Part shown: positions 3,014 to 61,445 of the stretch, piece after piece
Layout of the letters: every line of letters begins with the position of its first letter
Position numbering within the stretch: the first letter of the stretch is position 1
Origin: Bradyrhizobium genosp. L
GTDB taxonomy: Bacteria > Pseudomonadota > Alphaproteobacteria > Rhizobiales > Xanthobacteraceae
Assembly: GCF_015624485.1 (NCBI RefSeq)
Contig: NZ_CP061378.1
Location: 6,510,001-6,574,000 of the forward strand
DNA: 64,000 bases
Direction of reading: 5' to 3'
Notes under the pieces: generated by a model
Database searches by the model: none
What the model saw: the letters and a program-made list of their open reading frames with translations, nothing else
Told to the model about the DNA's origin: nothing
Position numbers and translations under genes: made by a program

Positions 3014-5302
3014 ATGCGTGACTGTTCGAACAACCGTCGGGGCTATGACCGCGTATTGATGACGATCGCGGCAACTTTCCTCGCGGTGTCCGCATCATCG
3101 GCCAACGCACAGGACACATCACGCAGCAGCGCTGCCGAACTCGCGATCGACGCCGCGATCCCGCGCCCCGAACCCGCCAACGTGCCGCCGCCCACCGCAA
3201 GCGATTTCAAGGCCGACACGACCGCCGCGCTGCCCGCGAAGCCGGCTGATGCCAAGCCGGCCGACGTGCAGGCGACCGAAGCCAAGCCGGTCGATGCCAA
3301 GACGACCGATGCCAAGACGACCGATGCCAAGACGATCGAAGCCAAGCCGGCCGAGCCGAGCGCGACGGCCAAGGCCGCCGAGCCGAAGCCCGCCGATGTT
3401 GCCACCGCGCCCGCCGACGGCAAACCTGCCGATACGCCGAAGACCGACACTGCGGTCGCGCCGCCTGCGGCTGTGCCCGCCCCGGCGACGGCCGCGGCCC
3501 CCGCAGCGGCTCCGGCGCCCGCGACCGCCGCTGCTCCGGCAGCCGAGCCGGTGAAGGCCGCGAGCAGTGTCCCCACCGAGGATCAGCCTGTCGCCGACAA
3601 GCTGCGCGATCTGTTCGCCGGCAAGACGCTGCGCAGCTTCGACCGCAAGGTCGAGCGCGCGGCGGCCGAGAAATTCTATTCGGCCCGCGACTACGCGCCG
3701 GTGTTCACGCAAGCCGGCAAGCTGACCGACGCCGGCAAGGGCGTGATCGCACGGCTGAAGGATGCCGCCTCCGATGGCCTCGATCCGGCCGAATATCCGG
3801 TGCCGGATTTCACCGCGGCGACCTCGCCGGACGCGCTGGCCGATGCCGAGCTCAAGCTCGCCGCCAGCATGCTGGAATATGCGCGCCAGGCGCAGAGCGG
3901 CCGCATGCACTGGTCGCAGGTGTCGGCCGACATCCTCTATCCGGAGCATCCGATCGATCCGGCCGAAGTGTTCGCCAATGTCACCACGGCCAAGGACGCA
4001 TCCGCCGCGCTCGACAGCTACAACCCGCCGCAGAAGCTCTACAAGGAGCTGAAGAAGAAGCTCGCCGAGCTGCGCGGCCAGGGCGACGGCCCGGTCATCA
4101 CGATCGCCGACGGCCCCGCACTGAAATACGTGCCCGCGCGCGGCAAGAAGCAGGCCGCGGTCGAGATGGACGATCCGCGCGTGCCGGATCTGCGCAACAA
4201 GCTCGGCGTCACCGAGGATGCCAGCAGCACCAAATATGACGCGACGGTCGCGCGCGCGGTGGAGAAGTTCCAGAGCAGCGTCGATATGAAGCCATCAGGC
4301 GTGCTCGACGAGCGCACGGTCAAGGCGCTGAACAACCCGAAGCGCGACCGGCAGATCGACACCGTGCTCGTCAACATGGAGCGCTGGCGCTGGCTGCCGC
4401 GCCAGCTTGGCGCCGGCAATATTGGCAATGCCTATGTCATCCTCAACATCCCCGACTACACGTTGAAGGTGATGCAGAACGGCGCGCAGGTCTGGACCAC
4501 GCGCGTCGTGACCGGCAAGCCCGGCCAGCATGCCACGCCGCTTTTGACCGAGACGATGAAGTACATCACGGTCAACCCGACCTGGAACGTGCCGCCGTCG
4601 ATCATCTACAACGAGTATCTGCCGGCGTTGCAGCAGGATCCGACGGTGCTGCAGCGGATGGGGCTGAAGCTCGAGCGCAACCGCGACGGCTCGGTGCACA
4701 TCTCGCAGCCGCCGGGTGAAGCCAACGCGCTCGGCCGCATCCGCTTCAACTTCCCGAACAAGTTCCTGGTCTATCAGCACGACACGCCGGACAAGTACCT
4801 GTTCGCCAAGGAAGAGCGCGCCTACAGCCACGGCTGCATGCGCGTGCAGAACCCGGACCAGTACGCCTCCGTGCTGCTCAACATCACCGAGCCGAACCAG
4901 CACTACACGCCGGAGCGGATCCGCAGCATGTACGGCACGAGCGAGGTCGACCTGAAATTCCCGACCCCGATCCCGGTCAACATCACCTATCAGACCGCGT
5001 TCGTGGACGATGCCGGCAAGCTGCAATTCCGCAAGGACGTCTACGGCCGCGACGCCACCATGCTGTCGCTGCTCAAGAACACCCACGGCAAGGATCTCGA
5101 GGCCGTGGTCGCGCATGCGCAGCCGAGCTACGCGCGTCCGCCGGCCGGCAGCCTGCCCTCCAGCGTCTACGCCAGCGACAGCAGCGGCGGGCCCTCCGGG
5201 CCGGGCTTCTTCGAGCGTCTGTTCGGGGGTGGATTCAACCAGCCGGCGCCGCAGCCGACCCGTCGCGGCCAGCCGCAGCCCCGCCGCGTGATCACCCGTT
5301 AA
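3014..5302 (+). CDS. Secreted L,D-transpeptidase (YcbB/LdtD-like, YkuD domain)
   Basis: The 762-aa protein begins with an N-terminal signal peptide (cleavage near ASSANA). Residues about 60-190 form an Ala/Pro/Lys-rich linker built of short DAK/AKPAD-type repeats. A peptidoglycan-binding-like domain lies at about 386-443. The YkuD catalytic domain carries SHGCMRVQ with catalytic Cys608. These enzymes make 3-3 cross-links in murein or attach proteins to it, in the periplasm. The size and order (linker, scaffold, PG-binding, YkuD) match the large LdtD/YcbB group. A good ribosome-binding site (GGGGG) precedes the ATG. The next gene downstream also acts on murein. Confidence 0.92.
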   Translation: MRDCSNNRRGYDRVLMTIAATFLAVSASSANAQDTSRSSAAELAIDAAIPRPEPANVPPPTASDFKADTTAALPAKPADAKPADVQATEAKPVDAKTTDAKTTDAKTIEAKPAEPSATAKAAEPKPADVATAPADGKPADTPKTDTAVAPPAAVPAPATAAAPAAAPAPATAAAPAAEPVKAASSVPTEDQPVADKLRDLFAGKTLRSFDRKVERAAAEKFYSARDYAPVFTQAGKLTDAGKGVIARLKDAASDGLDPAEYPVPDFTAATSPDALADAELKLAASMLEYARQAQSGRMHWSQVSADILYPEHPIDPAEVFANVTTAKDASAALDSYNPPQKLYKELKKKLAELRGQGDGPVITIADGPALKYVPARGKKQAAVEMDDPRVPDLRNKLGVTEDASSTKYDATVARAVEKFQSSVDMKPSGVLDERTVKALNNPKRDRQIDTVLVNMERWRWLPRQLGAGNIGNAYVILNIPDYTLKVMQNGAQVWTTRVVTGKPGQHATPLLTETMKYITVNPTWNVPPSIIYNEYLPALQQDPTVLQRMGLKLERNRDGSVHISQPPGEANALGRIRFNFPNKFLVYQHDTPDKYLFAKEERAYSHGCMRVQNPDQYASVLLNITEPNQHYTPERIRSMYGTSEVDLKFPTPIPVNITYQTAFVDDAGKLQFRKDVYGRDATMLSLLKNTHGKDLEAVVAHAQPSYARPPAGSLPSSVYASDSSGGPSGPGFFERLFGGGFNQPAPQPTRRGQPQPRRVITR

Positions 5303-5343
5303 TTCCGCCGACGGGCGATTTGGGTAAATTTTGAAGTGAAATC

Positions 5344-5372
5344 AACGATCTCGTCCGACGGACGAGATCGTT
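5344..5372 (+). terminator. Hairpin after the L,D-transpeptidase gene
   Basis: A perfect 13-bp stem (AACGATCTCGTCC at 5344-5356, loop GAC, complement at 5360-5372) lies 41 bp after the stop codon. Only a short T run follows (TTTACGTTAACC), so it may terminate weakly or act as an mRNA-end stabiliser. Confidence 0.55.
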
Positions 5373-5566
5373 TACGTTAACCATTATCCATCACGGCCGC
5401 GGCAGCCGGCTCTTTTTTGCCACACTCCACCTTTTAGTTAAGGCTAACTTGGGGGCGGGTCGGTAAACTTCGGTTAACCCTCCCGCTTTAAGAAAGCGTT
5501 CACCGTCTTTCGCAGGGGGTCTGCGATGACGCCGACCGAACGCTCGTCGACTTGGGTGGGCTCATA

Positions 5567-7147
5567 GTGCTGGCTGTCCTCGCACGCCGCTTCAATTCGC
5601 TATCGTTGCCGAAGGCCGGATACCAAGTCGGCCTGACGTCGCTATTGCTGCTGGCGCAAGCCGGAACGGTGCACGATGCGAGCGCGCTGAACGAGACCCG
5701 CACCCTCTCCTTCCACCACACCCATTCCAACGAAGATCTCACGGTCACCTTCAAGCGCGATGGCCGCTACGACGAAGCCGCGCTGAAGCAGCTCAATCAC
5801 TATCTGCGCGACTGGCGCAACCAGGATGAGACGGTGATGGACCGTCATTTGTTCGACATCCTCTGGGAAGTCTATCGCGACGTCGGCGGCAAGCAGCCGA
5901 TCCAGATCATCTCGTCGTACCGTTCCCCCTCCACCAACGCCATGCTGCGTCGCCGCTCCTCGGGCGTGGCGCGCCACAGCCAGCACATGCTGGGGCATGC
6001 GATGGACTTCTTCATCCCGGGCGTGCCGCTGGAGCAGATCCGCTTCGCCGGTCTGCGGCTACAGCGCGGCGGCGTCGGCTTCTATCCGACCTCCGGCTCG
6101 CCGTTCGTCCATCTCGACACCGGCAGCATCCGGCACTGGCCGCGCATGACGCATGACCAGTTGGCGCGGGTGTTCCCGGATGGCCGCACCGTCCATATCC
6201 CGACCGACGGCACGCCGCTGAAGGGCTACCAGCTCGCCAAGGCCGACATCGAACGCCGCGGCAATGGCGACGACGCCGCGACGATCAGCAAGCCAAGCGT
6301 GTTCGCCAAGCTGTTTGGCAGCAAGTCCAATGAGGACGACGAGGAAGCCGGCGCCAGCGTGAACGACACGCCCGCGGCCAACCCCGTGGTTGCGGCCGCC
6401 ATTCCGGCCAAATCCGCCGATCCCGTTCCGATGCCGCGCGCAAAGCCGCAGATCGCAGCTGCGATCCAGCTCGCCGCGGCCGATGCCCAGCTCATCCCGG
6501 CTCCGAAGGCCAAGCCGCAGGTCCAGGACGCCGACCGCAGCGCGAAGCCGCAGTCGCCGACCGACATCATCAACGCCCGCGGCTTCTGGGGTGACGATGC
6601 GGCTACGCCGAAGCAGGCGTCGGCGGCCCAGGTCGCGGCGCTGAAGGCCCGCGAGGCGGTTGCTGCCGCCGATCCGCAGACCACGGCGACCGCGACGGAA
6701 AACTTCAACAAGGCGCTCGCCTACGCGCCGGCGTCATCCTCGCCGGTCGACCGCGCCAATATCGTCGCGGCATCCGCGCCGATCCCGCACAGCGTGCGCC
6801 CGACCCGCAATGCTGCCGCTGCCGCCACCGAGATCAACACCGTCGTCGCCAAGGGCGCGCCGGGCCAGGGCGTGATCACCACGTCGGCGCGGATTTCGGC
6901 CGCCAAGGGCAACGACGTCTGGATGCGCGTCGTGATGCTGGCGCCGAGCGCGAGCAGCGGCATGCTGACCACGGTGCTCGGCGATACCGACATGAGCCTG
7001 ATGCGCGCGCATTTCATCAAGCCGCTCGCCGCCGTCGCGATGACCTTCTCGGAAGATCCGATGATGGGCATGACCTGCGACCGCTTCTCGGGCTCGGCCA
7101 CCGCAACGCTGCAGACCCAGCCGTTCCTCACCGCCTCGCTGCGCTGA
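5567..7147 (+). CDS. DUF882 / peptidase M15-like (YcbK/MepK-type) murein hydrolase
   Basis: After an N-terminal hydrophobic segment, a domain at about 50-190 shows the DUF882/M15 signature: SSYRSPSTNAMLRRRS, the metal ligands in SQHMLGHAMDFF, and FVHLDTG. Family members are periplasmic zinc peptidases that cut murein peptide cross-links. The rest (about 200-526) is an Ala/Pro/Lys-rich tail with no recognised domain, longer than usual for the family. The start is uncertain. GTG at 5567 is preferred (GGTGGG about 8 nt upstream), TTG at 5552 is possible, and no in-frame ATG exists upstream before the TAA at 5489. A 13-codon frame (5526-5567) with a good ribosome-binding site overlaps the GTG. 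Confidence 0.82.
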   Translation: MLAVLARRFNSLSLPKAGYQVGLTSLLLLAQAGTVHDASALNETRTLSFHHTHSNEDLTVTFKRDGRYDEAALKQLNHYLRDWRNQDETVMDRHLFDILWEVYRDVGGKQPIQIISSYRSPSTNAMLRRRSSGVARHSQHMLGHAMDFFIPGVPLEQIRFAGLRLQRGGVGFYPTSGSPFVHLDTGSIRHWPRMTHDQLARVFPDGRTVHIPTDGTPLKGYQLAKADIERRGNGDDAATISKPSVFAKLFGSKSNEDDEEAGASVNDTPAANPVVAAAIPAKSADPVPMPRAKPQIAAAIQLAAADAQLIPAPKAKPQVQDADRSAKPQSPTDIINARGFWGDDAATPKQASAAQVAALKAREAVAAADPQTTATATENFNKALAYAPASSSPVDRANIVAASAPIPHSVRPTRNAAAAATEINTVVAKGAPGQGVITTSARISAAKGNDVWMRVVMLAPSASSGMLTTVLGDTDMSLMRAHFIKPLAAVAMTFSEDPMMGMTCDRFSGSATATLQTQPFLTASLR

Positions 7148-7194
7148 GCCGCAAGCGCGATTCGGAGTCCTGCTCTTCCACTCCGTCATCCGGA

Positions 7195-7330
7195 GAGGAC
7201 GTGAGGCTATCTCCTCGTCCCCTGCTGTCATCGCCCGGCTCGACCGGGCGACCCAGTATGCCGCGGCTCCTCGGCTCAAGCACTGCTGTCTCTGGAATAC
7301 CGGGTCACCCGCATGCGCGGGTGACGACAC
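7195..7330. repeat. Palindromic intergenic repeat (two hairpins)
   Basis: The 324-bp gap between 7147 and 7472 carries two strong hairpins: TCGCCCGG/CCGGGCGA at 7231-7251 and GTCACCCGC/GCGGGTGAC at 7304-7325. The arrangement GTCATCGCCCGG...CCGGGTCACCC resembles dispersed Bradyrhizobium repeats found between genes. The rest of the gap, including the region just downstream of gapR, shows no gene. Confidence 0.6.
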
Positions 7331-7471
7331 CGACGATCTGCATGATTTCGGAATAATGGAAGAATATTACTGAGTTGCCCGACGTGTCAAGTCGCCCGTG
7401 TCGAGCACCGGCAGCCGCCGGGCTCCTTTGCATGGGGTTGTTTTTCGATATTTTGGCAGTCAGTCGTCCCT

Positions 7472-7741
7472 TCAGAGCATCCCCAGCGCCTGCATGTAGG
7501 TTTCCAGGATGGTTTCCTGCTCCTGGCGCTCATTGGCATCCTGCTTGCGCAGGCGCACGATGGTGCGCAGCGCCTTGACGTCGAAGCCGTTGCCTTTGGC
7601 CTCCGCGTAGACGTCGCGGATATCGTCCGAGATCGTCTTCTTCTCTTCTTCCAGCCGCTCGATGCGCTCGATGATGGACTTGAGCTGGTCCTTGGCGAAA
7701 CGGGTTGCGGGCTCTTCCTGGACGGCGGCGGACGTGGCCAT
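7472..7741 (-). CDS. gapR: GapR family DNA-binding protein (DUF2312)
   Basis: This 89-aa protein has the whole DUF2312/GapR pattern: an N-terminal helix with [20 protein letters not shown], a coiled coil, then [20 protein letters not shown]. GapR, characterised in Caulobacter, is a nucleoid-associated protein that binds overtwisted AT-rich DNA ahead of replication and transcription. The ATG at 7741 is chosen because AGGAG lies about 9 nt before it. An upstream ATG at 7762 would add seven residues without a comparable site. The gene stands alone. Confidence 0.92.
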
Positions 7742-7949
7742 CGCGTACTCCTGAACTGGCATTGCTGTGTGACGCGAATACGCGTCATGCGCACCGCTTG
7801 CTGCGGGCGACCCTCGATTTTGCGGCGCGTTCCGTCAAGGAAACATCGCGCTCATCCACAGCGCGCCCACAGGAGATGCGGACGGTGTTCATGCGGGCGT
7901 CGTGATTCCGGGGCGATGCGCAGCGTCGAACCCGGAATCACCACTGCGC

Positions 7950-52126: not shown

Positions 52127-53281
52127 ATGGACGTCAAGGCTGTCCTGCCGCCGCGCGGGCGCGACTATCGACTGGATCTGCTGCGCGGGTTCGCCAATTG
52201 GGCTATCTATCTCGATCACATCCCGAACAACGCGGTGAACTGGATCACGCAGAAGAATTTCGGCTTCAGCGACGCTGCCGATCTGTTCGTCTTCATCTCC
52301 GGCTACACGGCGTCCTTTGTCTATGCGCGGATGATGATCGAGCGCGGCACCGTGATCGGCGCCACCCGGCTGATCAAGCGCTCCTGGCAGATCTATGTCG
52401 CGCACGTCATGCTGTTCGTGATCTACATCGCCGAGATCGGCTATCTCGCCCAGCGCTACCACGATCCCAATCTGCAGAACGAGTTCAACGTCGCCGGCTT
52501 CATGCAGAACCCGGCCGAGACGCTCTATCAAGGCCTGATCCTGGCGTTCAAGCCGGTCAACATGGACGTGCTGCCGCTCTACATCGCGCTGATGGTGGTC
52601 TATCCGCTGGTGCTGTGGGCGATGCTCCGCAAGCTCAATCTGACGCTGGCGGCGTCGTTCCTGCTGTACCTCGCCGCGCGGCATTTCGGCTGGAACCTGC
52701 CGGCCTATCCGGACGGCTCATGGTACTTCAATCCGTTCTGCTGGCAGTTCCTGTTCGTGTTCGGCGGCTGGTTCGCGCTCGGCGGCGCATCCGAATCGAT
52801 CTCCTTCATCCGCTCGCGCGCCTTTCTCTGGCTCGGCGGGGCCTACCTCTTGTTCGCGCTGGTGATGACACTGGCCGGGCGCTTCCCCGAGCTCGCCCAT
52901 GCGATGCCGGCCTGGCTCTATGATGCGTTCAATCCGAACGACAAGACCAATCTCGCGCCCTATCGCGTACTGCATTTCGTGGTGCTCGCCTTCTTCGTCA
53001 CGCGCTTTCTGCCGAAGGACTGGCCTGGATACGAACGGCCGATCTTCCAGCCGATCATCAAATGCGGTCAGCAGTCGCTCGAGGTGTTCTGCTCGGGCGT
53101 CTTCCTCGCCGTGGTCGCGCATGTGGTGCTGGTCGAGGTCTCCGGCAGCCTGTGGATGCAGATCGTGGTCAGCGCGGTCGGCATCGTGCTGATGACCGTG
53201 CTGGCCTACTACCGCTCGTGGTCGAAGAAGGTCGACAAGGCGCCGGCGAAGCTCCCGCCGAAACCGGCGCCGGCGGCGTAG
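52127..53281 (+). CDS. opgC: OpgC domain membrane acyltransferase
   Basis: 384 aa with about ten membrane helices. It opens with the OpgC pattern RDYRLDLLRGFANWAIYLDH, followed by AADLFVFISGYTASFVYARM. The C-terminus is a charged Lys/Pro-rich tail. OpgC proteins substitute osmoregulated periplasmic glucans with succinyl or related groups, acting in the inner membrane. GGGGGAG precedes the ATG. It is monocistronic and converges with the RiPP cluster. Confidence 0.93.
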   Translation: MDVKAVLPPRGRDYRLDLLRGFANWAIYLDHIPNNAVNWITQKNFGFSDAADLFVFISGYTASFVYARMMIERGTVIGATRLIKRSWQIYVAHVMLFVIYIAEIGYLAQRYHDPNLQNEFNVAGFMQNPAETLYQGLILAFKPVNMDVLPLYIALMVVYPLVLWAMLRKLNLTLAASFLLYLAARHFGWNLPAYPDGSWYFNPFCWQFLFVFGGWFALGGASESISFIRSRAFLWLGGAYLLFALVMTLAGRFPELAHAMPAWLYDAFNPNDKTNLAPYRVLHFVVLAFFVTRFLPKDWPGYERPIFQPIIKCGQQSLEVFCSGVFLAVVAHVVLVEVSGSLWMQIVVSAVGIVLMTVLAYYRSWSKKVDKAPAKLPPKPAPAA

Positions 53282-53319
53282 ACCACATTTATCCGATCTC
53301 GGTCGGCCGCGACGCGCTT

Positions 53320-53877
53320 TCACTGGCCCCGGGGGGAGACGGCCGCATCCGCGCCGAATTTCTGCGTAGCGTATCGAATGCCGACGTTTTTTAGCCGTGT
53401 TTCGCATTCCGTTAGATCGGACACACCTCGCAACTGTGTTTGCCACTCGCGCAGTGCTTGCCTCATGCAATAGTGCTCTACGCCGACAGCGGTGACCGCG
53501 CTTCGCGAAACGAATTCACCGCTGGCCACGCGGACAAACGAGTGCGCATCGAACGCATAGACGGTCGGTCGAAACCTTTGCACTTGGCGCAGATCGTGGT
53601 GTGCCATGAAAACCACCGCCTGCTTGGCGGCATCGACCTCGACTCCACATTGAGACAGTCGTGCCATTGCATCGCAATCGAGCACGACGCTGATCCGGTC
53701 AATTCGCGGGAAAAGATGAAGAGTCATACCGACCCCGTCGGCTGCATAAAGCAGCTGATCGGCAACCAGGCCAGGCTCGGGCCGATTCGAGCTGACCGAA
53801 TAATCCTCGCTGCGATAGAAGATGCGGGGACTGAACGTCATAGCGAGATTTGGACGATCTGCCCGGTAGACCAACAC
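53320..53877 (-). CDS. Unrecognised protein at the 3' end of the RiPP cluster
   Basis: 185 aa, soluble, with no recognised domain. It begins MLVYRADRPNLAMTFSPRIF and contains TLHLFPRIDRISVVLDCDAM, AVVFMAHHDLRQVQRF and HYCMRQALREWQTQL. The start GTG at 53877 is chosen because GGAG lies about 7 nt upstream, and the preceding oxygenase stop TGA is separated from it by one base (TGACGTG), so the two are translationally coupled. It could be a partner, second tailoring enzyme or immunity factor. Nothing in the sequence decides this. Confidence 0.7.
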   Translation of the reverse strand: MLVYRADRPNLAMTFSPRIFYRSEDYSVSSNRPEPGLVADQLLYAADGVGMTLHLFPRIDRISVVLDCDAMARLSQCGVEVDAAKQAVVFMAHHDLRQVQRFRPTVYAFDAHSFVRVASGEFVSRSAVTAVGVEHYCMRQALREWQTQLRGVSDLTECETRLKNVGIRYATQKFGADAAVSPRGQ

Positions 53878-53878
53878 G

Positions 53879-54703
53879 TCAAGCTCCGCCGGACGAAGGC
53901 AGGGCGAATTCGCCAAGCAGCGTGATCGTCACGTCGCGCTCGATTTTGTCCTCCGTCGTACTGTCGTGAATCACATTCTCCGTTGGCGCAATGTAGGCCT
54001 CTCCAGGACGAACGGTCAGCTTCAACACCGGATAGTCCGGAAATTCCGCCATGAACACGTCGCCGACGTCGATACTGTTTCCAGTGACGCGTGGATCCGC
54101 GACTCCCGCCTCCATGAGGGTGTTCCGCATTTGCAGCAGTGTCAGATTGATGAAGAGGAGGAAACGATCTTCCCTGCCTGCATTCAGGCAAAGCCGATTT
54201 GGCGCGAGATGACGGGACGCGATCGGCTGCCCATAGAAGCTGTCGACATGCAGTCCAATCAACTGCGAGGTACGCGGATCGTAGGTCGAAGTCGGCAACC
54301 CGATCCGCCGCGAGTTTGGCCCGAGAAGACGGGGCGGGGCTCGTGCTCCCACGCTCAAAAGTGTTGCAAACCGGATGATCGCCGGTTCGATCGACGCCGG
54401 GTCGCTGAACAACTCCGTCCTACCGATCGCGGCAACCAGTTCGTCCGGGACACGAACGACCGCGACAGAGCTTCCCTTCATAAATCCAGCGGTATCCCCC
54501 TCGACTCGGCTCAGTTCGCCCGGTTGCAGCGGTGTCCACGGCTTGCGCGGAATTCTCGTGCCATGTTCGTAATCGTCGGCATCCGCCACGACGGTACCGT
54601 CGCTTCGCGCAACCCTTGCCGCGACGGCTTCGCCGGTTACGTCGAAGATCTGCACGCCGGCGACGAGTTGCCGACCATCAAACGACGTTGCGCGCGTGTC
54701 CAT
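53879..54703 (-). CDS. 2-oxoglutarate/Fe(II) oxygenase of the RiPP cluster (YhhC-like)
   Basis: 274 aa from ATG at 54703, with a TTG at 54739 in frame upstream. The iron-ligand set of a 2OG oxygenase is present: H152-x-D154 in GLHVDSFYGQP, distal H246 in AYIAPTENVIHDS, and R256 ten residues later as the co-substrate ligand. It overlaps the radical SAM gene end by 26 nt. The likely role is to hydroxylate residues of the peptide made by the neighbouring maturase. NCBI has a family of cyclophane-peptide oxygenases, YhhC, that this resembles in context (recalled, not searched). Confidence 0.72.
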   Translation of the reverse strand: MDTRATSFDGRQLVAGVQIFDVTGEAVAARVARSDGTVVADADDYEHGTRIPRKPWTPLQPGELSRVEGDTAGFMKGSSVAVVRVPDELVAAIGRTELFSDPASIEPAIIRFATLLSVGARAPPRLLGPNSRRIGLPTSTYDPRTSQLIGLHVDSFYGQPIASRHLAPNRLCLNAGREDRFLLFINLTLLQMRNTLMEAGVADPRVTGNSIDVGDVFMAEFPDYPVLKLTVRPGEAYIAPTENVIHDSTTEDKIERDVTITLLGEFALPSSGGA

Positions 54704-55859
54704 TCCGGGCAAATCCGTTCGAGCCGTCAGCAAGTCCAAGGCCGCCTTCGACCGCGATATGTTTCATGAGAGCCGAAACCACGGCCTGCTTCTGATGCCG
54801 GCAATGCCCGCTCTCGGTGCCGTCGAACCGGCCGGTCTCGAAGAATTTGCTGGAGGGAGCACCTCCGTAGCAGGCGAACCAGTATGGACAACTGGTCCGG
54901 CAGGAATCGACCCCCCTCCTGATCTCCTCATTCACCTGCTTGAAGACCGCGTTGGCCTCCATGGCGTCGAAAGAATCGGACATCACGTTTCCCATGATGA
55001 AATCGGAGTAGCGGGGGGCGGACGCGGATCTGAGCTCCGGACAGAACGTCGAGAAGGCGCCCGAGCGATCCACCGTAATGACATCGTAGGGCGCGTTCGT
55101 GCTGTTTCGCCCGGCATGGATGTTGGAAATGCCTTCGCGATTCCTGATCGCGCGATAGGCGTCGCTGATCTCGCGAATGTTGAACAGGGATTTGCTCTTG
55201 CTGATGCGCTGCAGGAACCGGATGAAGAACCGCTCCATCCGTTCGAACGAATGAAGCGTCGAGTTCAGGTGAACGCCGAGCGTCGTCTCTGCGTTAAACG
55301 CGACATTTACGATATCCTCCCGCTCAAAGAACTCGAAAATTTCGTCGGGATAGTCGAGCGAATGGTCGGAGACGACCGCGATCGCCGAAAATCCAATATC
55401 GGCAGACCGAAGATGCGCGATGCCGGCCATCGTTCGCGCATGCGTCCCTCGTCCCGAACGATCCTTGCGGTGGAAATCGTGCACGAAGGCTGGCCCATCC
55501 AGGCTCACGCCGATCCGGATGTCGCGACGCCGAACGAAATCGGTCCATTTGCGGTTGATCAGCGTCCCGTTGGTCTGGATCGCGAAGCGGAACTCCCTGC
55601 CGAAGGGACGGTTCTCTGCAACCGCGAGCTCGAATGCCTGCTCGTACATTGCAAGAGGGGCGGCCAGCGGCTCACCGGCGTGCCAGAGGAACGTGATCGG
55701 ATCGATCGTTCGCCGGCTCTCGAAGGCCCTGCGGAAGATCGCCGAAAGCACCTCGTTTGACATCCGCTGAGAGCTCGCGCGGTCCGGCAAGTAGCAGTAA
55801 CTGCAATCGATGTTGCAGAATGGCGTTCCCTGAACGACAACGAGCGTACCGCCGAACAT
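54678..55859 (-). CDS. Radical SAM/SPASM peptide maturase (cyclophane-forming type, YhhB-like)
   Basis: 393 aa from ATG at 55859. A TTG at 55898 in frame would add 13. The radical SAM cluster is CX3CX2C in TPFCNIDCSYCYL (C15, C19, C22). The C-terminal SPASM-like part has C273, C320, C324, C330 and C353, with the pattern SCRTSCPYWFACYGGAPSSK seen in cyclophane- and other cross-link-forming maturases. It is co-oriented with a short precursor gene and an oxygenase gene. It probably joins an aromatic ring to a neighbouring side chain in the precursor C-terminus (inference). Confidence 0.85.
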   Translation of the reverse strand: MFGGTLVVVQGTPFCNIDCSYCYLPDRASSQRMSNEVLSAIFRRAFESRRTIDPITFLWHAGEPLAAPLAMYEQAFELAVAENRPFGREFRFAIQTNGTLINRKWTDFVRRRDIRIGVSLDGPAFVHDFHRKDRSGRGTHARTMAGIAHLRSADIGFSAIAVVSDHSLDYPDEIFEFFEREDIVNVAFNAETTLGVHLNSTLHSFERMERFFIRFLQRISKSKSLFNIREISDAYRAIRNREGISNIHAGRNSTNAPYDVITVDRSGAFSTFCPELRSASAPRYSDFIMGNVMSDSFDAMEANAVFKQVNEEIRRGVDSCRTSCPYWFACYGGAPSSKFFETGRFDGTESGHCRHQKQAVVSALMKHIAVEGGLGLADGSNGFARNGHARNVV

Positions 55860-55962
55860 GCGCGTGTGCCCACTTTCGCCGCCGACGGGCGCTGTCAAGC
55901 CGTTACGAACGCCGGTGTTCGGCTGTTACGGAGGAAGCTATCCCGAAGGTGAGGCGCTCGAC

Positions 55963-56157
55963 CTACAGGGCCGGGCCCTTGTGGAATCGCGACCAATCCT
56001 GAAACCACTCATGGATCACCGGGCTGTCGGTGTCGCGCCTGCCGGCCCCGAGAAACTTGGCGTCGCACGACTGCGCAAATTCTGCGTTGACGCCGAGCGC
56101 CTGTTGCGCCGCCGCCAACTGAGATTGCACATCTGCATCGCGTTCCGATTTGGTCAT
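55963..56157 (-). CDS. RiPP precursor peptide, 64 aa
   Basis: A 64-codon gene with AAGGAG 7 nt upstream of its ATG. Residues 1-46 form a charged, helical leader (TKSERDADVQSQLAAAQQAL). The C-terminus, about residues 47-64, is rich in aromatics: HEWFQDWSRFHKGPAL, with W51, F52, W55, F58. Three successive aromatic-x-x triads (W-F-Q, W-S-R, F-H-K) fit the substrate pattern of cyclophane-forming radical SAM enzymes. It lies 103 bp upstream of the maturase ATG. The short size, leader-core layout and genomic position support a precursor role. Confidence 0.8.
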   Translation of the reverse strand: MTKSERDADVQSQLAAAQQALGVNAEFAQSCDAKFLGAGRRDTDSPVIHEWFQDWSRFHKGPAL

Positions 56158-56295
56158 GATCAATCTCCTTCTGAAAGAAGAAAAGCGACCACGACAAAAA
56201 TGCAATGTCAAGTAGCATTCGGCAAGGGTGACTAACTTTGCTTGATCAACAATTTCTGATGCGCTCATTGCGCATGCGAGCGAAGCGCGCTTCGC

Positions 56296-57585
56296 CTATC
56301 TTGCCAGCGGCTTTCCGGCCGTCTCCGGCGCCAGCTTGATCAGCGGCAGGCCGATCAGATAGATCAGCGACAACAGCGAGATCGCCAGCGGGAAGCTTCC
56401 GGTGCGGGCGGCAAGCGCGCCGATCAAGGTCGGGCCGGCGGCGCCGAGCACGCGGCCCATGCTGAAGGCGAAACCGGAGCCCGAGCCGCGCAGCGCACTG
56501 GGAAACATCTCCGGCAGCCAGATCGTGAACAGTCCGAACACGCCGTTGGTGAAAAAGCCGAGCACCGGCAAGAGCACCATGAACAGCGTCAGGCTGTCGA
56601 GCCACGCGATCGCGACCTGATAGCAGACCACGACCGAAACCACGCCGCCGATGAAGAACAGGACCGCGGTGCGTCGCCGGCTGCCGAGCCAGCCGGTGAT
56701 CGACGGCACCAGGAAGCAACCGATCAGCGTGCCGACATTGGTGATCAGGCCGGCCACCGCCCCCATCTCCTGCGCATGTGCTGGTGTCGCGCCCGCGGCG
56801 ACCAGCTTGGTCGCGATCACGGTCGGCGCCCAGAAATTCGAGGACCACAGGCCGAAGATGATGCAGGCCATCAGGAGCGCCGCGGCCCAGGTGGTGCGCG
56901 CCTGGTCGCCGGCAAACAATTCCGTGACCGAAGGCCGCTCACGCGACGCATGGTTCGCGGGCTCGGGAATATTACTGCGCAGATACGCGATTAGCAGCGC
57001 CGGCAGGATGCCGAGCAGGAACATGCCGCGCCAGCCGAGGGTGTTGCCGATCGCAAGCGTGACGGCGGCGGCCAGGAACAGCCCGGTCGGCGTCGCCGTA
57101 TGCAGCCATCCGGCGAGCCGCACCCGCGTATTCTCGGGCACGGACTCCTGCAGCAGCGGGGTGCCCGCGGCCCACTCGCCGCCGATGCCGAAGCCGGCGA
57201 CGAAGCGAAACAGCGCGAACATCACGATCCCGGTCGCAAGCCCGCACAATGCCGTGAACAAGGAGTAGACCAGCACCGTCCAGCACATGATCCTGACGCG
57301 GCCGTAACGATCGGCGGCCCAGCCCCAGACCATCGAGCAGGCCCAGCCCAGCATGAAGATCGAGAATAACAGCCCGCCATAGATACCGATATTGGCCTTG
57401 CTCGGCTCGATCCCGCTCGCCGGCAGCAGCTCGCTCAGCGCGCCGACCAGGATGTAGCCGTACATCGAAGAATCGAAGCCATCGAGCATCCAGCCGAACC
57501 AGGTCGCCCAAAACACTTTTCGCGGCGACGCGGCGTCAGGTACCGCGGCTGGCGGCGCAACGGCATCGACGATGCTCTCGGTCAT
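56296..57585 (-). CDS. MFS transporter
   Basis: 429 aa with about 12 membrane helices in two halves. Conserved MFS elements are WAADRYGRVRIM (motif A, loop 2-3), FRFVAGFGIGGEWAAGTPLL (helix 5) and the second half. It resembles the SP/SHS-type acid and sugar carriers. GAGGAAAC precedes the ATG. It lies upstream of the precursor gene on the same strand (138 bp), so it could be co-transcribed with the RiPP cluster or be unrelated. Substrate unknown. Confidence 0.85.
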   Translation of the reverse strand: MTESIVDAVAPPAAVPDAASPRKVFWATWFGWMLDGFDSSMYGYILVGALSELLPASGIEPSKANIGIYGGLLFSIFMLGWACSMVWGWAADRYGRVRIMCWTVLVYSLFTALCGLATGIVMFALFRFVAGFGIGGEWAAGTPLLQESVPENTRVRLAGWLHTATPTGLFLAAAVTLAIGNTLGWRGMFLLGILPALLIAYLRSNIPEPANHASRERPSVTELFAGDQARTTWAAALLMACIIFGLWSSNFWAPTVIATKLVAAGATPAHAQEMGAVAGLITNVGTLIGCFLVPSITGWLGSRRRTAVLFFIGGVVSVVVCYQVAIAWLDSLTLFMVLLPVLGFFTNGVFGLFTIWLPEMFPSALRGSGSGFAFSMGRVLGAAGPTLIGALAARTGSFPLAISLLSLIYLIGLPLIKLAPETAGKPLAR

Positions 57586-57731: not shown

Positions 57732-57920
57732 TCAGCTCCGCGCGGAGCGCCGGCCGACGTAGAACGCGATCACGACCAGCGGCACGGCAAGCGCGAGCCA
57801 GGAGGCTTGGTCCCAGATCCCGTCGCCGAGCAGGGCCGAGACCAGCCCGAAGGCGATCACGGCCGAGATCACAACCGGCGCCAGGAAGATTTGCGTGACC
57901 GAACGCTTTGTCGCGGACAT
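57732..57920 (-). CDS. Small membrane protein in the iron-uptake set
   Basis: 62 aa with two membrane helices (IFLAPVVISAVIAFGLVSAL and ASWLALAVPLVVIAFYVGRR). The ATG overlaps the PepSY gene stop (TGATG), so it is translationally coupled to it. Similar short proteins follow PepSY genes in other rhizobia as I recall, but no function is known. It is probably an accessory of the PepSY membrane protein. Confidence 0.75.
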   Translation of the reverse strand: MSATKRSVTQIFLAPVVISAVIAFGLVSALLGDGIWDQASWLALAVPLVVIAFYVGRRSARS

Positions 57921-59065
57921 CAGGATCGCTCCGCACCGACGACGAGCGGCGACGCCGCCGCAATTGACGCACGCGCCGGAGCCTTGCGCAGCTTCACCGC
58001 CCAGAGATAGACGCCGCTGCCGAGCACGATGATGGTCGCGAGATCGAGCAGCGCCCAGATGATCTTCAGCTGCAGCCCGCCATAGTCGCCGAAATGCAGC
58101 GGGCGCGAGACGAACAACGCCTGGACGTAGAGCGGCATGTCCCGCGTTTCGCCGAACGAGCCGTCGTCCGCATTGATCAGCACCGGCTTGAGCAGGCGCG
58201 AGGTGAGCGGCTGGTTGCCGCGGAGATAGACGCCGTAGTGATGACCGCCGGCAAATTGCGATCCCGGCATGGCGACGGACTGCACCTTCATGCCCGGCGC
58301 GTGCGCCAGCGCCGTGTCGATCGCGAGTTGAGCCGACGCCAGTTGCGCAGGCACCGCGGCGTTGCGCCAGGGCCCAAGCATCGCGACCAGCTCGGTGCGC
58401 TGCCAATGCTGCGCGATCTGTGTCGAGAGCGTGTTGATGACGCCGGTGACGCCGACGACGAGCGTCCATGCCAGGATCACGATGCCGAGCAGATTATGCA
58501 GGTCGAGCCAGTACAGGCGGCGGCGCGGCCGGATCGCGCCGAAATCCAACCGTCGCATGAACGGCCCGTAGACGACGACGCCGGAGACGATCGCGAGCAG
58601 GAAGCAGAGACCCATGGCGCCGAGAAACAGCATGCCCGGCTGGTCCAAAAACAGATCGGTGTGCAGGTCGAGCAGAAACTTGGTGACCGCGCCGCGGGCG
58701 GCCGCGCCGACGTGAAGGATCCGCCCCGAACGCGCGTCGATGCTGACGATGACGTCGGCTTTCGGCGCAGTGACGGTCGATGCCATGTAGACGTGCCAGA
58801 TCGGATCCTCGTCGTCGGCACCGACGATGGTGATAACCTGCTTTGGTTGCGCCGCGCGGGCGATCTCGAGGATACGGTCGAAACTCAGCAAGGGCGCCGC
58901 GCCTGCGGCCGGATCGGGCTCGATCGTGGCGCCCAACGCGGAATCGATCTCATCGTGGAAGATCAGCGGCAGCCCGGTGATGCATAGCAGCAGCAGGAAC
59001 AGCGTGCAGATCAGGCTGGTCCATTTGTGGACGCCCTTCCAGGCCCGGATCGAATGCGGCGTCAT
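57920..59065 (-). CDS. PepSY-associated membrane protein (iron uptake-linked)
   Basis: 381 aa with four membrane helices (WTSLICTLFLLLLCITGLPL, FLGAMGLCFLLAIVSGVVVY, LHNLLGIVILAWTLVVGVTG, and ALLDLATIIVLGSGVYLWAV) and PepSY domains between them (VIVSIDARSGRILHVGAAA). Conserved histidines are in KGVHKWTSL, LDLHTDLFL and YWLDLHNLLG. These proteins are thought to reduce ferric siderophores using haem at the inner membrane. The gene lies 22 nt after the TonB-dependent receptor. Confidence 0.9.
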   Translation of the reverse strand: MTPHSIRAWKGVHKWTSLICTLFLLLLCITGLPLIFHDEIDSALGATIEPDPAAGAAPLLSFDRILEIARAAQPKQVITIVGADDEDPIWHVYMASTVTAPKADVIVSIDARSGRILHVGAAARGAVTKFLLDLHTDLFLDQPGMLFLGAMGLCFLLAIVSGVVVYGPFMRRLDFGAIRPRRRLYWLDLHNLLGIVILAWTLVVGVTGVINTLSTQIAQHWQRTELVAMLGPWRNAAVPAQLASAQLAIDTALAHAPGMKVQSVAMPGSQFAGGHHYGVYLRGNQPLTSRLLKPVLINADDGSFGETRDMPLYVQALFVSRPLHFGDYGGLQLKIIWALLDLATIIVLGSGVYLWAVKLRKAPARASIAAASPLVVGAERS

Positions 59066-59087
59066 GCGGAGATGTCCTTCCTCGATC

Positions 59088-61445
59088 TCAATTCCAGGTG
59101 TAGCGAACGCTGCCGATCACGGTTCGCCCGGAGCCGAGGAAACAGGAGTTCGCCGTCGAGCACCAGGAGACGTAATACTTGTCGAACAGGTTGGTGGCAT
59201 TCACCGCGAGCGTGACGCCGCGCAGCCGACGGTCGAGATTGGACAGGTCGTAATGCACGGCCACATCGAACAGCGTGTAGCTCGGAATCGAAAGCGTGTT
59301 GGCGAGGTCGCCATAGGAATCGCCAATGTAGCGCACGCCGCCGCCGAAGCCGAAGCCCGTGAGCTGGCCCTGCTGAAAGGTGTAATCGGCCCATAGCGCC
59401 GCCTGATTCATCGGCTGGACGATGAGGTGCTTGTTGAGCTGGGAGGGCGTATTGGTCTTGGTCGTCAAGGTGTCGGTATAGGCGTAGGAGGCAAGCAGCT
59501 TGAGCCCTTCCGTCAAACTTACTTGTGCCTCGAACTCGCCACCACGCGATCGCGCCTCGCCGGTCTGATCGCTGAACCCCACAATGGCCGACGGCGTAAC
59601 GACGTTCTGCTGCGTTAGGTCGAACAGCGCTGCAGTCAGTAGCAAGTTCGTACCGGCGGCCTGGTATTTGACGCCGATCTCGGCCTGCTGGGCGGTGGTC
59701 GGGACGGGCGCACCGCCGGCCACTGTCACCCCCAACGTCGGCTGGAATGAGGTCGCATAGGCGATATAGGGCGCAATGCCGGAGTCGAAGATGTAGTTCA
59801 GGCCGGCACGACCGGTGAATGCCTGATCATTCTGGGTCGTCTGCTTGTTGGTCACGAAATTCATCGAGTCAGTCGTAACCCAGTCGCTGCGACCAGTCAG
59901 GGTCAGGCGCCACCGGCCGAGCGCGACCTGGTCCTGCAGGTAGAGACCGGTCTGGTCCTGCACCTGGCTGGAGTGATTGGTCGTCGTCGTTGGAAACGCA
60001 ATCGCAGCGCCATAGACCGTGTTGTAGAGATTGATCTGAGGTGCAGCGCCGACGGTCATGTTGATTTGACTGTCGATGTGGCGATAGTCGACGCCAAACA
60101 GCGCGGTGTGCGCGAGTGCGCCCGTGGTGAACCGCGCCTCGGCCTGATTGTCCAAGGTGACGGAACTCGCATCCTCCGGGAACGAGAAAGCAGCGCGATT
60201 GAGCGTGCTGAAGTCTCCCGAGGCCGTGTTGGGAAGGGCCGCCGAGCCGATCGCACCGCCGCCAGCGACAGCATAGGTGTTGGTCTCAAGGTCGAAGTAG
60301 CGGACGTTCTGCCGCACCGTCCAAACTTCGTTGAACGAGTGCTCAAACTGATAACCAACCCACGCCTGGGTACGATCGAAATGATCGAAGCCGGGTTCGC
60401 CAAGGAACTTGGTCAGGGGAATGCGGCCGTTGGGATTGGAATACAGCGTTCCTTGCGACGGGAAGAACTGCAACGCCAGACCGGTGATGTCGCGCTGATA
60501 GCCGCTCAGGAAGGTGAAAGTGGTGTCGAGATCAGGCTTGTAGGTAAAGGATGGTGCAATCGCGCCGCGAAAGTCGTTGACGAAATCGGTCTGCGTGCCG
60601 CCGTCGTGGATGGTACCGGCAATGCGCCAGAACAGATCGCCCTTCTGATTGACCGCACCGACGCCGCCGACGTCGAAATTGGCCTGCACCTTGCCCCAGT
60701 TGTCGGCAAGCAATTCGAACGAGTTGAGCGGCGAAGCCGTGGGCAGGCGGCTAACCATGTTGACGAAGCCGCCGGGAGGGGCCTGTCCATAGAGCGATGA
60801 GCCGGGCCCGCGCAGCACCTCGACCCGTTCCAGAAGTGCGAGATCGAGTTTTGGCTGGCCGAACGAAGCCGCACCGTAGGGCAGCCGCATGCCATCGAGG
60901 AAGAGCTGTGCCTGGAAGCCGCGGATGAATATTGATTCAAACCGCGTGTCGTTCGGGCTGTTGGTGACGATGCCCGGCGTATAGCCGACCGCCTGCACCA
61001 CCGAGCGCGCACCCTGGTCGCGGATCTGGTCGGTGCCGATCACTGAAACCGACTGCGGCACTTCGAGGATCGGCGTGTTGGTCTTGGTGCCGGCGAGCGT
61101 CCGATGCGGGACGTAGCCCTGGATCGGGCCGTTACCCTGCTGGAACGTGCCGCGGCTGGCCGCGGTCTCGACATGCGGTGCGCTCTGCGGGCCGCGCGGT
61201 CCCGGCGCGACTCGCGGCCTGGCCGTGCGCGCCGCGCGAGCGGTACGCGGTGCCGTTCCGCGCGATTGCGCCCGCTGCTTCGGCGCATCGACCGTCACCG
61301 GAGGAAGCGTCGCTGCGCCCTGCCCGCTCGGCAATGTCTGCGCGGCCGCCGCTGTCGCATATCCCGCCAACGCCACGCTCAAACACACGATGACTGGAGT
61401 CTTCGCTCCGTTGCCCTGAAGTCCCACATCCACGCCCCATGCCAC
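59088..61445 (-). CDS. TonB-dependent siderophore receptor (FhuA/FoxA type)
   Basis: 785 aa. A signal peptide (VIVCLSVALAGYATAAAAQ) is followed by an unusual Arg/Pro/Ala-rich stretch (about 50-100), with a possible TonB box at ATLPPVTVDAPK. The plug domain has ILEVPQSVSVIGTDQIRDQG and FIRGFQAQLFLDGMRLPYG with LRGPGSSLYGQAPPGG. The 22-strand barrel ends in an aromatic-terminated TVIGSVRYTWN. GTG start. It takes up ferric siderophores, powered by a TonB system encoded elsewhere. It is the first gene of an operon with the PepSY protein. Confidence 0.95.
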   Translation of the reverse strand: MAWGVDVGLQGNGAKTPVIVCLSVALAGYATAAAAQTLPSGQGAATLPPVTVDAPKQRAQSRGTAPRTARAARTARPRVAPGPRGPQSAPHVETAASRGTFQQGNGPIQGYVPHRTLAGTKTNTPILEVPQSVSVIGTDQIRDQGARSVVQAVGYTPGIVTNSPNDTRFESIFIRGFQAQLFLDGMRLPYGAASFGQPKLDLALLERVEVLRGPGSSLYGQAPPGGFVNMVSRLPTASPLNSFELLADNWGKVQANFDVGGVGAVNQKGDLFWRIAGTIHDGGTQTDFVNDFRGAIAPSFTYKPDLDTTFTFLSGYQRDITGLALQFFPSQGTLYSNPNGRIPLTKFLGEPGFDHFDRTQAWVGYQFEHSFNEVWTVRQNVRYFDLETNTYAVAGGGAIGSAALPNTASGDFSTLNRAAFSFPEDASSVTLDNQAEARFTTGALAHTALFGVDYRHIDSQINMTVGAAPQINLYNTVYGAAIAFPTTTTNHSSQVQDQTGLYLQDQVALGRWRLTLTGRSDWVTTDSMNFVTNKQTTQNDQAFTGRAGLNYIFDSGIAPYIAYATSFQPTLGVTVAGGAPVPTTAQQAEIGVKYQAAGTNLLLTAALFDLTQQNVVTPSAIVGFSDQTGEARSRGGEFEAQVSLTEGLKLLASYAYTDTLTTKTNTPSQLNKHLIVQPMNQAALWADYTFQQGQLTGFGFGGGVRYIGDSYGDLANTLSIPSYTLFDVAVHYDLSNLDRRLRGVTLAVNATNLFDKYYVSWCSTANSCFLGSGRTVIGSVRYTWN

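Follow-up and report, generated by a model that had tools for sequence, protein, structure and literature searches.

A putative triceptide-type RiPP gene cluster with a MicC-type oxygenase and an unusual fourth gene in Bradyrhizobium genosp. L

Four consecutive minus-strand genes (A to D) in the window, the 64,000-nucleotide stretch of Bradyrhizobium genosp. L DNA analyzed here, probably form a horizontally acquired triceptide-type RiPP cluster, in which B would install rings in precursor A, C would hydroxylate the peptide, and D would act on it or assist. The co-occurrence of a precursor, a GrrM/OscB-family maturase, and a MicC-type oxygenase bears out the cluster type named in the original prediction, which had been made from the DNA letters. 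The overall type, a triceptide RiPP, is known; its core sequence and fourth gene are unusual. The cluster combines a member of a well-defined family of cyclophane maturases with an oxygenase for which NCBIfam has no matching family, and the set of four genes is small enough to be rebuilt in E. coli. With it, one could test directly if Asp, Arg, and Lys are tolerated by GrrM/OscB enzymes at the linked position, how MicC-type oxygenases act on cyclophanes, and if DUF6886-like proteins have a part in peptide maturation.

Gene layout and insertion

All four predicted open reading frames were present. Gene A (55963..56157, minus strand) encodes the 64-aa precursor peptide and is backed by its open frame, a good ribosome-binding site (AGAAGGAG, 7 bases ahead of the ATG), and two relatives. 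The maturase gene B (54678..55898, minus strand) starts at TTG 55898 or ATG 55859 and ends at 54678. The oxygenase gene C (53879..54703, minus strand) yields 274 aa from ATG 54703, with TTG 54739 as a possible alternative start, and ends at 53879. The last gene, D (53320..53877, minus strand), encodes a 185-aa orphan from a GTG start, or 198 aa from an alternative TTG at 53916. The genes had been described as following each other with overlaps or one-base gaps, which holds for B, C, and D (a 26-base overlap of B and C, given the ATG 54703 start, and a single base between C and D) but not for A and B, which are separated by 64 bases with the TTG start of B or 103 bases with its ATG start.

Comparison with the junctions of relatives, together with low GC content, revealed that A to D fill one 3.0-kb insert (53282..56295) flanked by an OpgC-like gene (52127-53281) and an MFS gene (56296-57585). 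This junction was compared in the three relatives whose MFS orthologue is at least 80% identical. In one of them (G036), both flanking genes have counterparts of 92-93% identity, with 61 bases between the two stop codons; in the second (G238), other sequence of about 0.8 kb, containing an open frame, lies between them; in the third (G018), the OpgC-like gene was not found beside the MFS gene. The GC content of the insert (3,014 bases) was 59.3%, below every value from 220 other overlapping stretches of the window (65.3%, sd 1.6), and GC3 was 0.62-0.75 in A to D versus 0.87-0.88 in the two flanking genes. The earlier hint of transfer, drawn from an apparently lower G+C of these genes, was thus strengthened by both the base composition and the absence of the insert in G036, and the cluster appears to have been acquired as a block. 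Because all four genes share this low-GC insert, at a place where the flanks are only 61 bases apart in G036, D probably came with the rest. The different open frame at the OpgC-like/MFS junction of G238 (L126, about 4895-5600), which we take to be AlaX-like, indicates that this site may be a hot spot for gene gain.

Of 265 congeneric genomes, this one alone had A and D. Two weak matches to A (G254 and G255) were rejected as precursors; they lie inside a presumably TetR-like frame, with no B or C match in the 9.5 kb covered. Relatives of C occurred in 3 of the 265 genomes, the other two at 32-35% identity, and a GrrM match over the cut-off was present in 21, two of which (G000 and G178) also carry C. 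No protease or exporter was recognizable within the insert. Beside the MFS gene, the window holds at 57920-61445 what we take, from the translations, to be a PepSY-like membrane gene and a TonB-dependent receptor gene.

The fourth gene

A fourth gene beyond a plain A-B-C locus had been anticipated, and D indeed follows C after one base. It matched Pfam PF21820 (DUF6886) weakly, with E-values of 3.4e-4 to 4.2e-4 and 20.4-20.7 bits against a cut-off of 27, over positions 23-160 of 164, and an hhalign comparison with three DUF6886 proteins gave an E-value of 9.2e-5 and a probability of 59. An E-value below 1e-3 with a score under the cut-off suggests that D is only remotely kin to DUF6886. The LYLFPR segment of true members aligns with LHLFPR of D, whereas many residues invariant in the three aligned members are missing from D. 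A search of 5.8 billion proteins returned, at its sensitivity, no homologue apart from D itself, and there was none in the 264 other congeneric genomes or in 72,556 plasmid records, from which A was likewise absent; no relative of D or DUF6886 in viral contigs passed tblastn. A literature search on DUF6886 found no paper. Folded alone, D gave an unusable model (pLDDT 38.6). When the insert was shuffled 500 times, 83 of the shuffles had an ORF of 185 codons or more in one of the six frames, so that length alone is no proof of D.

These results bear on the strongest alternative, in which D is an unrelated neighbor outside the pathway, for example a self-protection gene or a stand-alone gene carried along. 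When 1,246 ORFs from the surroundings of C in 36 loci were searched with D by phmmer, D itself was the sole significant match, and DUF6886 matches were few (a single one per genome, in 1 of 60 relatives and in 3 of 150 members of the phylum, with genome G670 in both sets), both of which favor this alternative, while the place of D within the insert, a single base behind C, argues against it; we give it somewhat less than an even chance. In the preferred reading of a four-gene RiPP pathway, D would sit in a slot near where some related clusters have a glycosyltransferase-like gene or a second hydroxylase. A bolder version of that reading, which we hold to be rather unlikely as a whole, makes D a DUF6886-derived RiPP tailoring enzyme acting on a hydroxyl set by C, places it in a variable slot taken elsewhere by glycosyltransferase-like or sulfotransferase genes, and has B shifted to Asp, Arg, and Lys at i+2, so that the product would be a tricyclic peptide with charged bridges.

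The maturase and the precursor core

The profile matches of B place it in the GrrM/OscB family of cyclophane-forming maturases. It scored 378.6 bits against NCBIfam TIGR04261 (GrrM/OscB; cut-off 310), covering profile positions 1-361 of 363, and also matched Pfam PF04055. The cluster motif C28-x3-C32-x2-C35 and five further cysteines (286, 333, 337, 343, and 366, numbered from the TTG) agree with the radical SAM/SPASM maturase, with CX3CX2C and SPASM-like cysteines, that had been proposed, and the family is one of peptide maturases rather than a non-peptide radical SAM family. Scores against AmcB (NF041718; 294 bits, cut-off 425) and YhhB (NF041707; 118.9 bits, cut-off 445) were below the cut-offs, and those against DynA, DarW, and DarE (139.2, 116.8, and 90.8 bits) were far below theirs. 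Among the best 25 of 58 matched families, only the GrrM/OscB cut-off was exceeded. YhhA/B/C-type cyclophane loci combine a precursor, a radical SAM maturase, and a 2OG oxygenase, and the original prediction had drawn its analogy from them. The window differs from such loci in that B is far below the YhhB cut-off and no NCBIfam family matches C at E<=1. Since B exceeds the GrrM/OscB cut-off and falls below that of YhhB, the YhhB label is, as judged by profile scores, wrong; the analogy was mistaken in family and right in kind. Literature searches on GrrM and YhhC found no paper.

The C-terminal core of A reads W51-FQD-WSR-FHK-GPAL and is preceded by a leader with an E-F-A-Q-S-C-D-x-K-F block. 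A protein search retrieved two metagenomic relatives, P0123 (77% identity, full length) and P0124 (52% identity over 95% of A), and in all three proteins the 11 residues WFQDWSRFHKG are identical, as is E-F-A-Q-S-C-D of the leader. Conservation of the 64-aa frame next to homologous maturases had been set as a test of the original prediction; the identical core in these two proteins speaks for conservation of the frame itself. Against NCBIfam and Pfam, A had nothing at E<=1, and a search of 5,321 small ORFs with a profile built from the three A sequences gave no further precursor. The segment FQD-WSR-FHK constitutes a phased run of three aromatic-x-x units, a tandem core, with W51 out of phase. 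As composition alone gave a shuffle p of only 0.025 for such a run, conservation and context carry the argument for the core.

Our sample of GrrM-like loci comprised 31 cases, 20 from congeneric genomes and 11 from loci fetched with C; scores over the GrrM cut-off were shown for all 20 of the former and 5 of the latter. Just upstream of the maturase, 15 of the 31 loci had an ORF in which aromatic-x-x units recur in phase three or more times, versus 38 of 1,754 other small ORFs of the same loci, a comparison that is only approximate because the best of several ORFs was taken per locus, one positive (L075) looks like chance, and the run counted in L010 is out of phase with its core, a WNN-FDK array. 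There was no run of three in the other 16, which include two loci scored as misses, L081 (only about 0.1 kb of sequence ahead of the maturase) and L018 (maturase in pieces). Clear cores were seen in L022 (WDN-FDR-YYK-FFN), L026 (WNN-FPN-YFK-FAS-FAN), and L077 (FPN repeats). Like triceptide OscB/GrrM loci, the window has a TIGR04261 maturase, a short precursor directly upstream, and a tandem aromatic-x-x core; unlike them, it has D, R, and K at the i+2 positions of the core with no Asn in any triad, and it adds a MicC-type oxygenase and a DUF6886-like gene. Asn at i+2 was present in 13 of 13 other tabulated runs (L075 and L089 excluded, the run of L010 chosen by eye) and absent from that of the window; a run of two in L036 likewise lacks it. 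Several Bradyrhizobium GrrM loci have precursors with a signal peptide, whereas none is evident in A, as judged by eye.

Some further features of these loci were noted. Four congeneric GrrM loci (L073, L077, L082, and L080) have precursors with long FPN or FxN/FNQ repeats, and that of L080 (G178) also has a MicC-type oxygenase. A basic i+2 residue was considered as a marker of oxygenase loci and dropped, such units occurring, by eye, both with and without C. In Leptolyngbya sp. PCC 7375 (L018:1545-6506), the match to the GrrM-like gene is broken into three parts, two of which are separated by a 587-aa ORF.

A review (PMC11002830) reports that OscB and its kin form i/i+2 aromatic-to-C-beta cyclophanes, with OscB linking Trp C7 to C-beta of Asn or Asp and Phe C4 to C-beta of Asn, XncB linking Trp to Arg or Asn, and YhhB linking Tyr or His to Arg. 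In our model, B would bind the conserved leader of A and join the aromatic ring of each core unit to the beta-carbon two residues on, with F52-D54, W55-R57, and F58-K60 as the likeliest sites of up to three i/i+2 cyclophanes; an alternative register would give a W51-Q53 ring. C would then hydroxylate one or more core residues, and D could act on or assist the oxidized peptide, either as a further step or as a helper. Given that no triad of the core has Asn at i+2, B may act on fewer than three units. The second alternative takes up this point: B might make only one or two rings, or another linkage (for instance W51-Q53 plus W55-R57, or a bond of the ether or C-N type), and C might perform a non-hydroxylating oxidation such as desaturation. 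Related radical SAM/SPASM enzymes do make other linkages, DarE forming one ether and one C-C link according to PMC9055067; B also scores with DynA, DarW, and DarE, under their cut-offs; and W51 stands outside the phase of the run. Against this, GrrM/OscB is the sole family whose cut-off B exceeds among those best 25, and the F52-W55-F58 phasing matches the tandem units of sister loci, which leaves the alternative improbable. A relic without a product, finally, is very improbable, since the occurrence of the set in 1 of 265 congeneric genomes and a scan that found no sigma-70-like promoter (a weak test, shuffles averaging 0.7) are outweighed by four open frames, intact catalytic motifs, a good ribosome-binding site, and a core unchanged in two metagenomic relatives.

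The oxygenase and its genomic contexts

Sequence homology groups C with the MicC-type Fe(II)/2OG oxygenases, and peptide oxidation is its putative activity. MicC, an alpha-ketoglutarate-dependent non-heme iron oxygenase (PDB 9vkm), was the single PDB sequence relative of C, with a profile E-value of 1.3e-60 over positions 5-278 of 282, and it shares with C near full-length homology and the HxD and IHD motifs; in a single-sequence comparison (E 3.2e-21), about 120 C-terminal residues align well, whereas the N-terminal part aligns weakly. A protein search found 172 homologues, and in 49 aligned sequences selected from the best 120, H152-x-D154 and H246 were invariant, as were R170 and R180, the latter also present in MicC. 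The predicted 2OG oxygenase identity is therefore upheld by the homology to MicC and the intact HxD...H motif. Regarding the proposed H-x-D...H...R pattern, the HxD and the second His (H246) stood, while no invariant Arg directly follows that His. The model of C had a pLDDT of 94.4, and its structural matches listed by Foldseek and VIA-align were mostly Fe/2OG oxygenases, with 9vkm absent among those listed (the database copy ends in April 2026). Among 385 genomes of the class, C was found in its own genome, along with two weak matches (E 1.6e-8 and 4.1e-7), and plasmid records yielded five distant relatives. A literature search on MicC returned, among the matches listed, no paper on this enzyme, its pathway, or its reaction. 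A midpoint-rooted tree of 52 sequences, displayed without support values, plays no part in the argument.

The contexts of C relatives were surveyed in 33 loci of named genomes, all from one peptide pattern. In 24 of them, the retrieved region contained a B-like radical SAM gene at a distance of up to 7 kb, on the opposite strand in three (L015, L016, and L025). Ten radical SAM enzymes from C loci were scanned, five of which exceeded the GrrM/OscB cut-off; the other five were nearer to AmcB, XyeB, or YhhB/FxsB, or unclassified, with none over a cut-off among the matches listed. The neighbors of C were scanned for 23 of these 33 loci, of which 15 have a radical SAM gene and 8 do not. A possible partner enzyme, oxidizing or decorating, was found beside C in 7 of the 15: GT9-like glycosyltransferases in L023 (above the Pfam cut-off), L034 (slightly below it), and L031 (by NCBIfam, far below the cut-off), aKG-HExxH hydroxylases in L022 and L030, and 2OG-FeII_Oxy_3 proteins in L019, L022, and L026. 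The remaining eight had weak, unrelated, or no families there, such as MFS (L010), ROK (L021), pentapeptide repeats (L033), and a weak GTPase match (L004). These contexts suggest, without proving it, that C installs a hydroxyl for use by other enzymes.

The 9 loci without a B-like gene include six cyanobacterial ones (L008, L009, L011, L012, L013, and L017), in which a TPR-sulfotransferase follows C, no radical SAM gene was detectable, and the protein before C ends in repeated Cys/His units (for example, CSHCTHCTHCTH); the C match lies at about 7000-7800 in each. These six possibly represent another kind of RiPP. For two loci without a radical SAM gene, L024 and L035, the scan of genes beside C added nothing. 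With 9 of 33 loci lacking a B-like gene and six in a sulfotransferase context, C-type enzymes are not tied to cyclophanes, and the survey suggests that MicC-type oxygenases are common to several peptide systems with changing partner genes. Two arrangements from the fetched loci are worth recording. In Bradyrhizobium huanghuaihaiense (L023:5716-8697), a radical SAM gene (over no cut-off among the matches listed), a MicC-type oxygenase, and a GT9-like glycosyltransferase follow each other in overlapping order, and a Thermosynechococcaceae MAG (L014:5741-10113) carries two radical SAM/oxygenase pairs in tandem.
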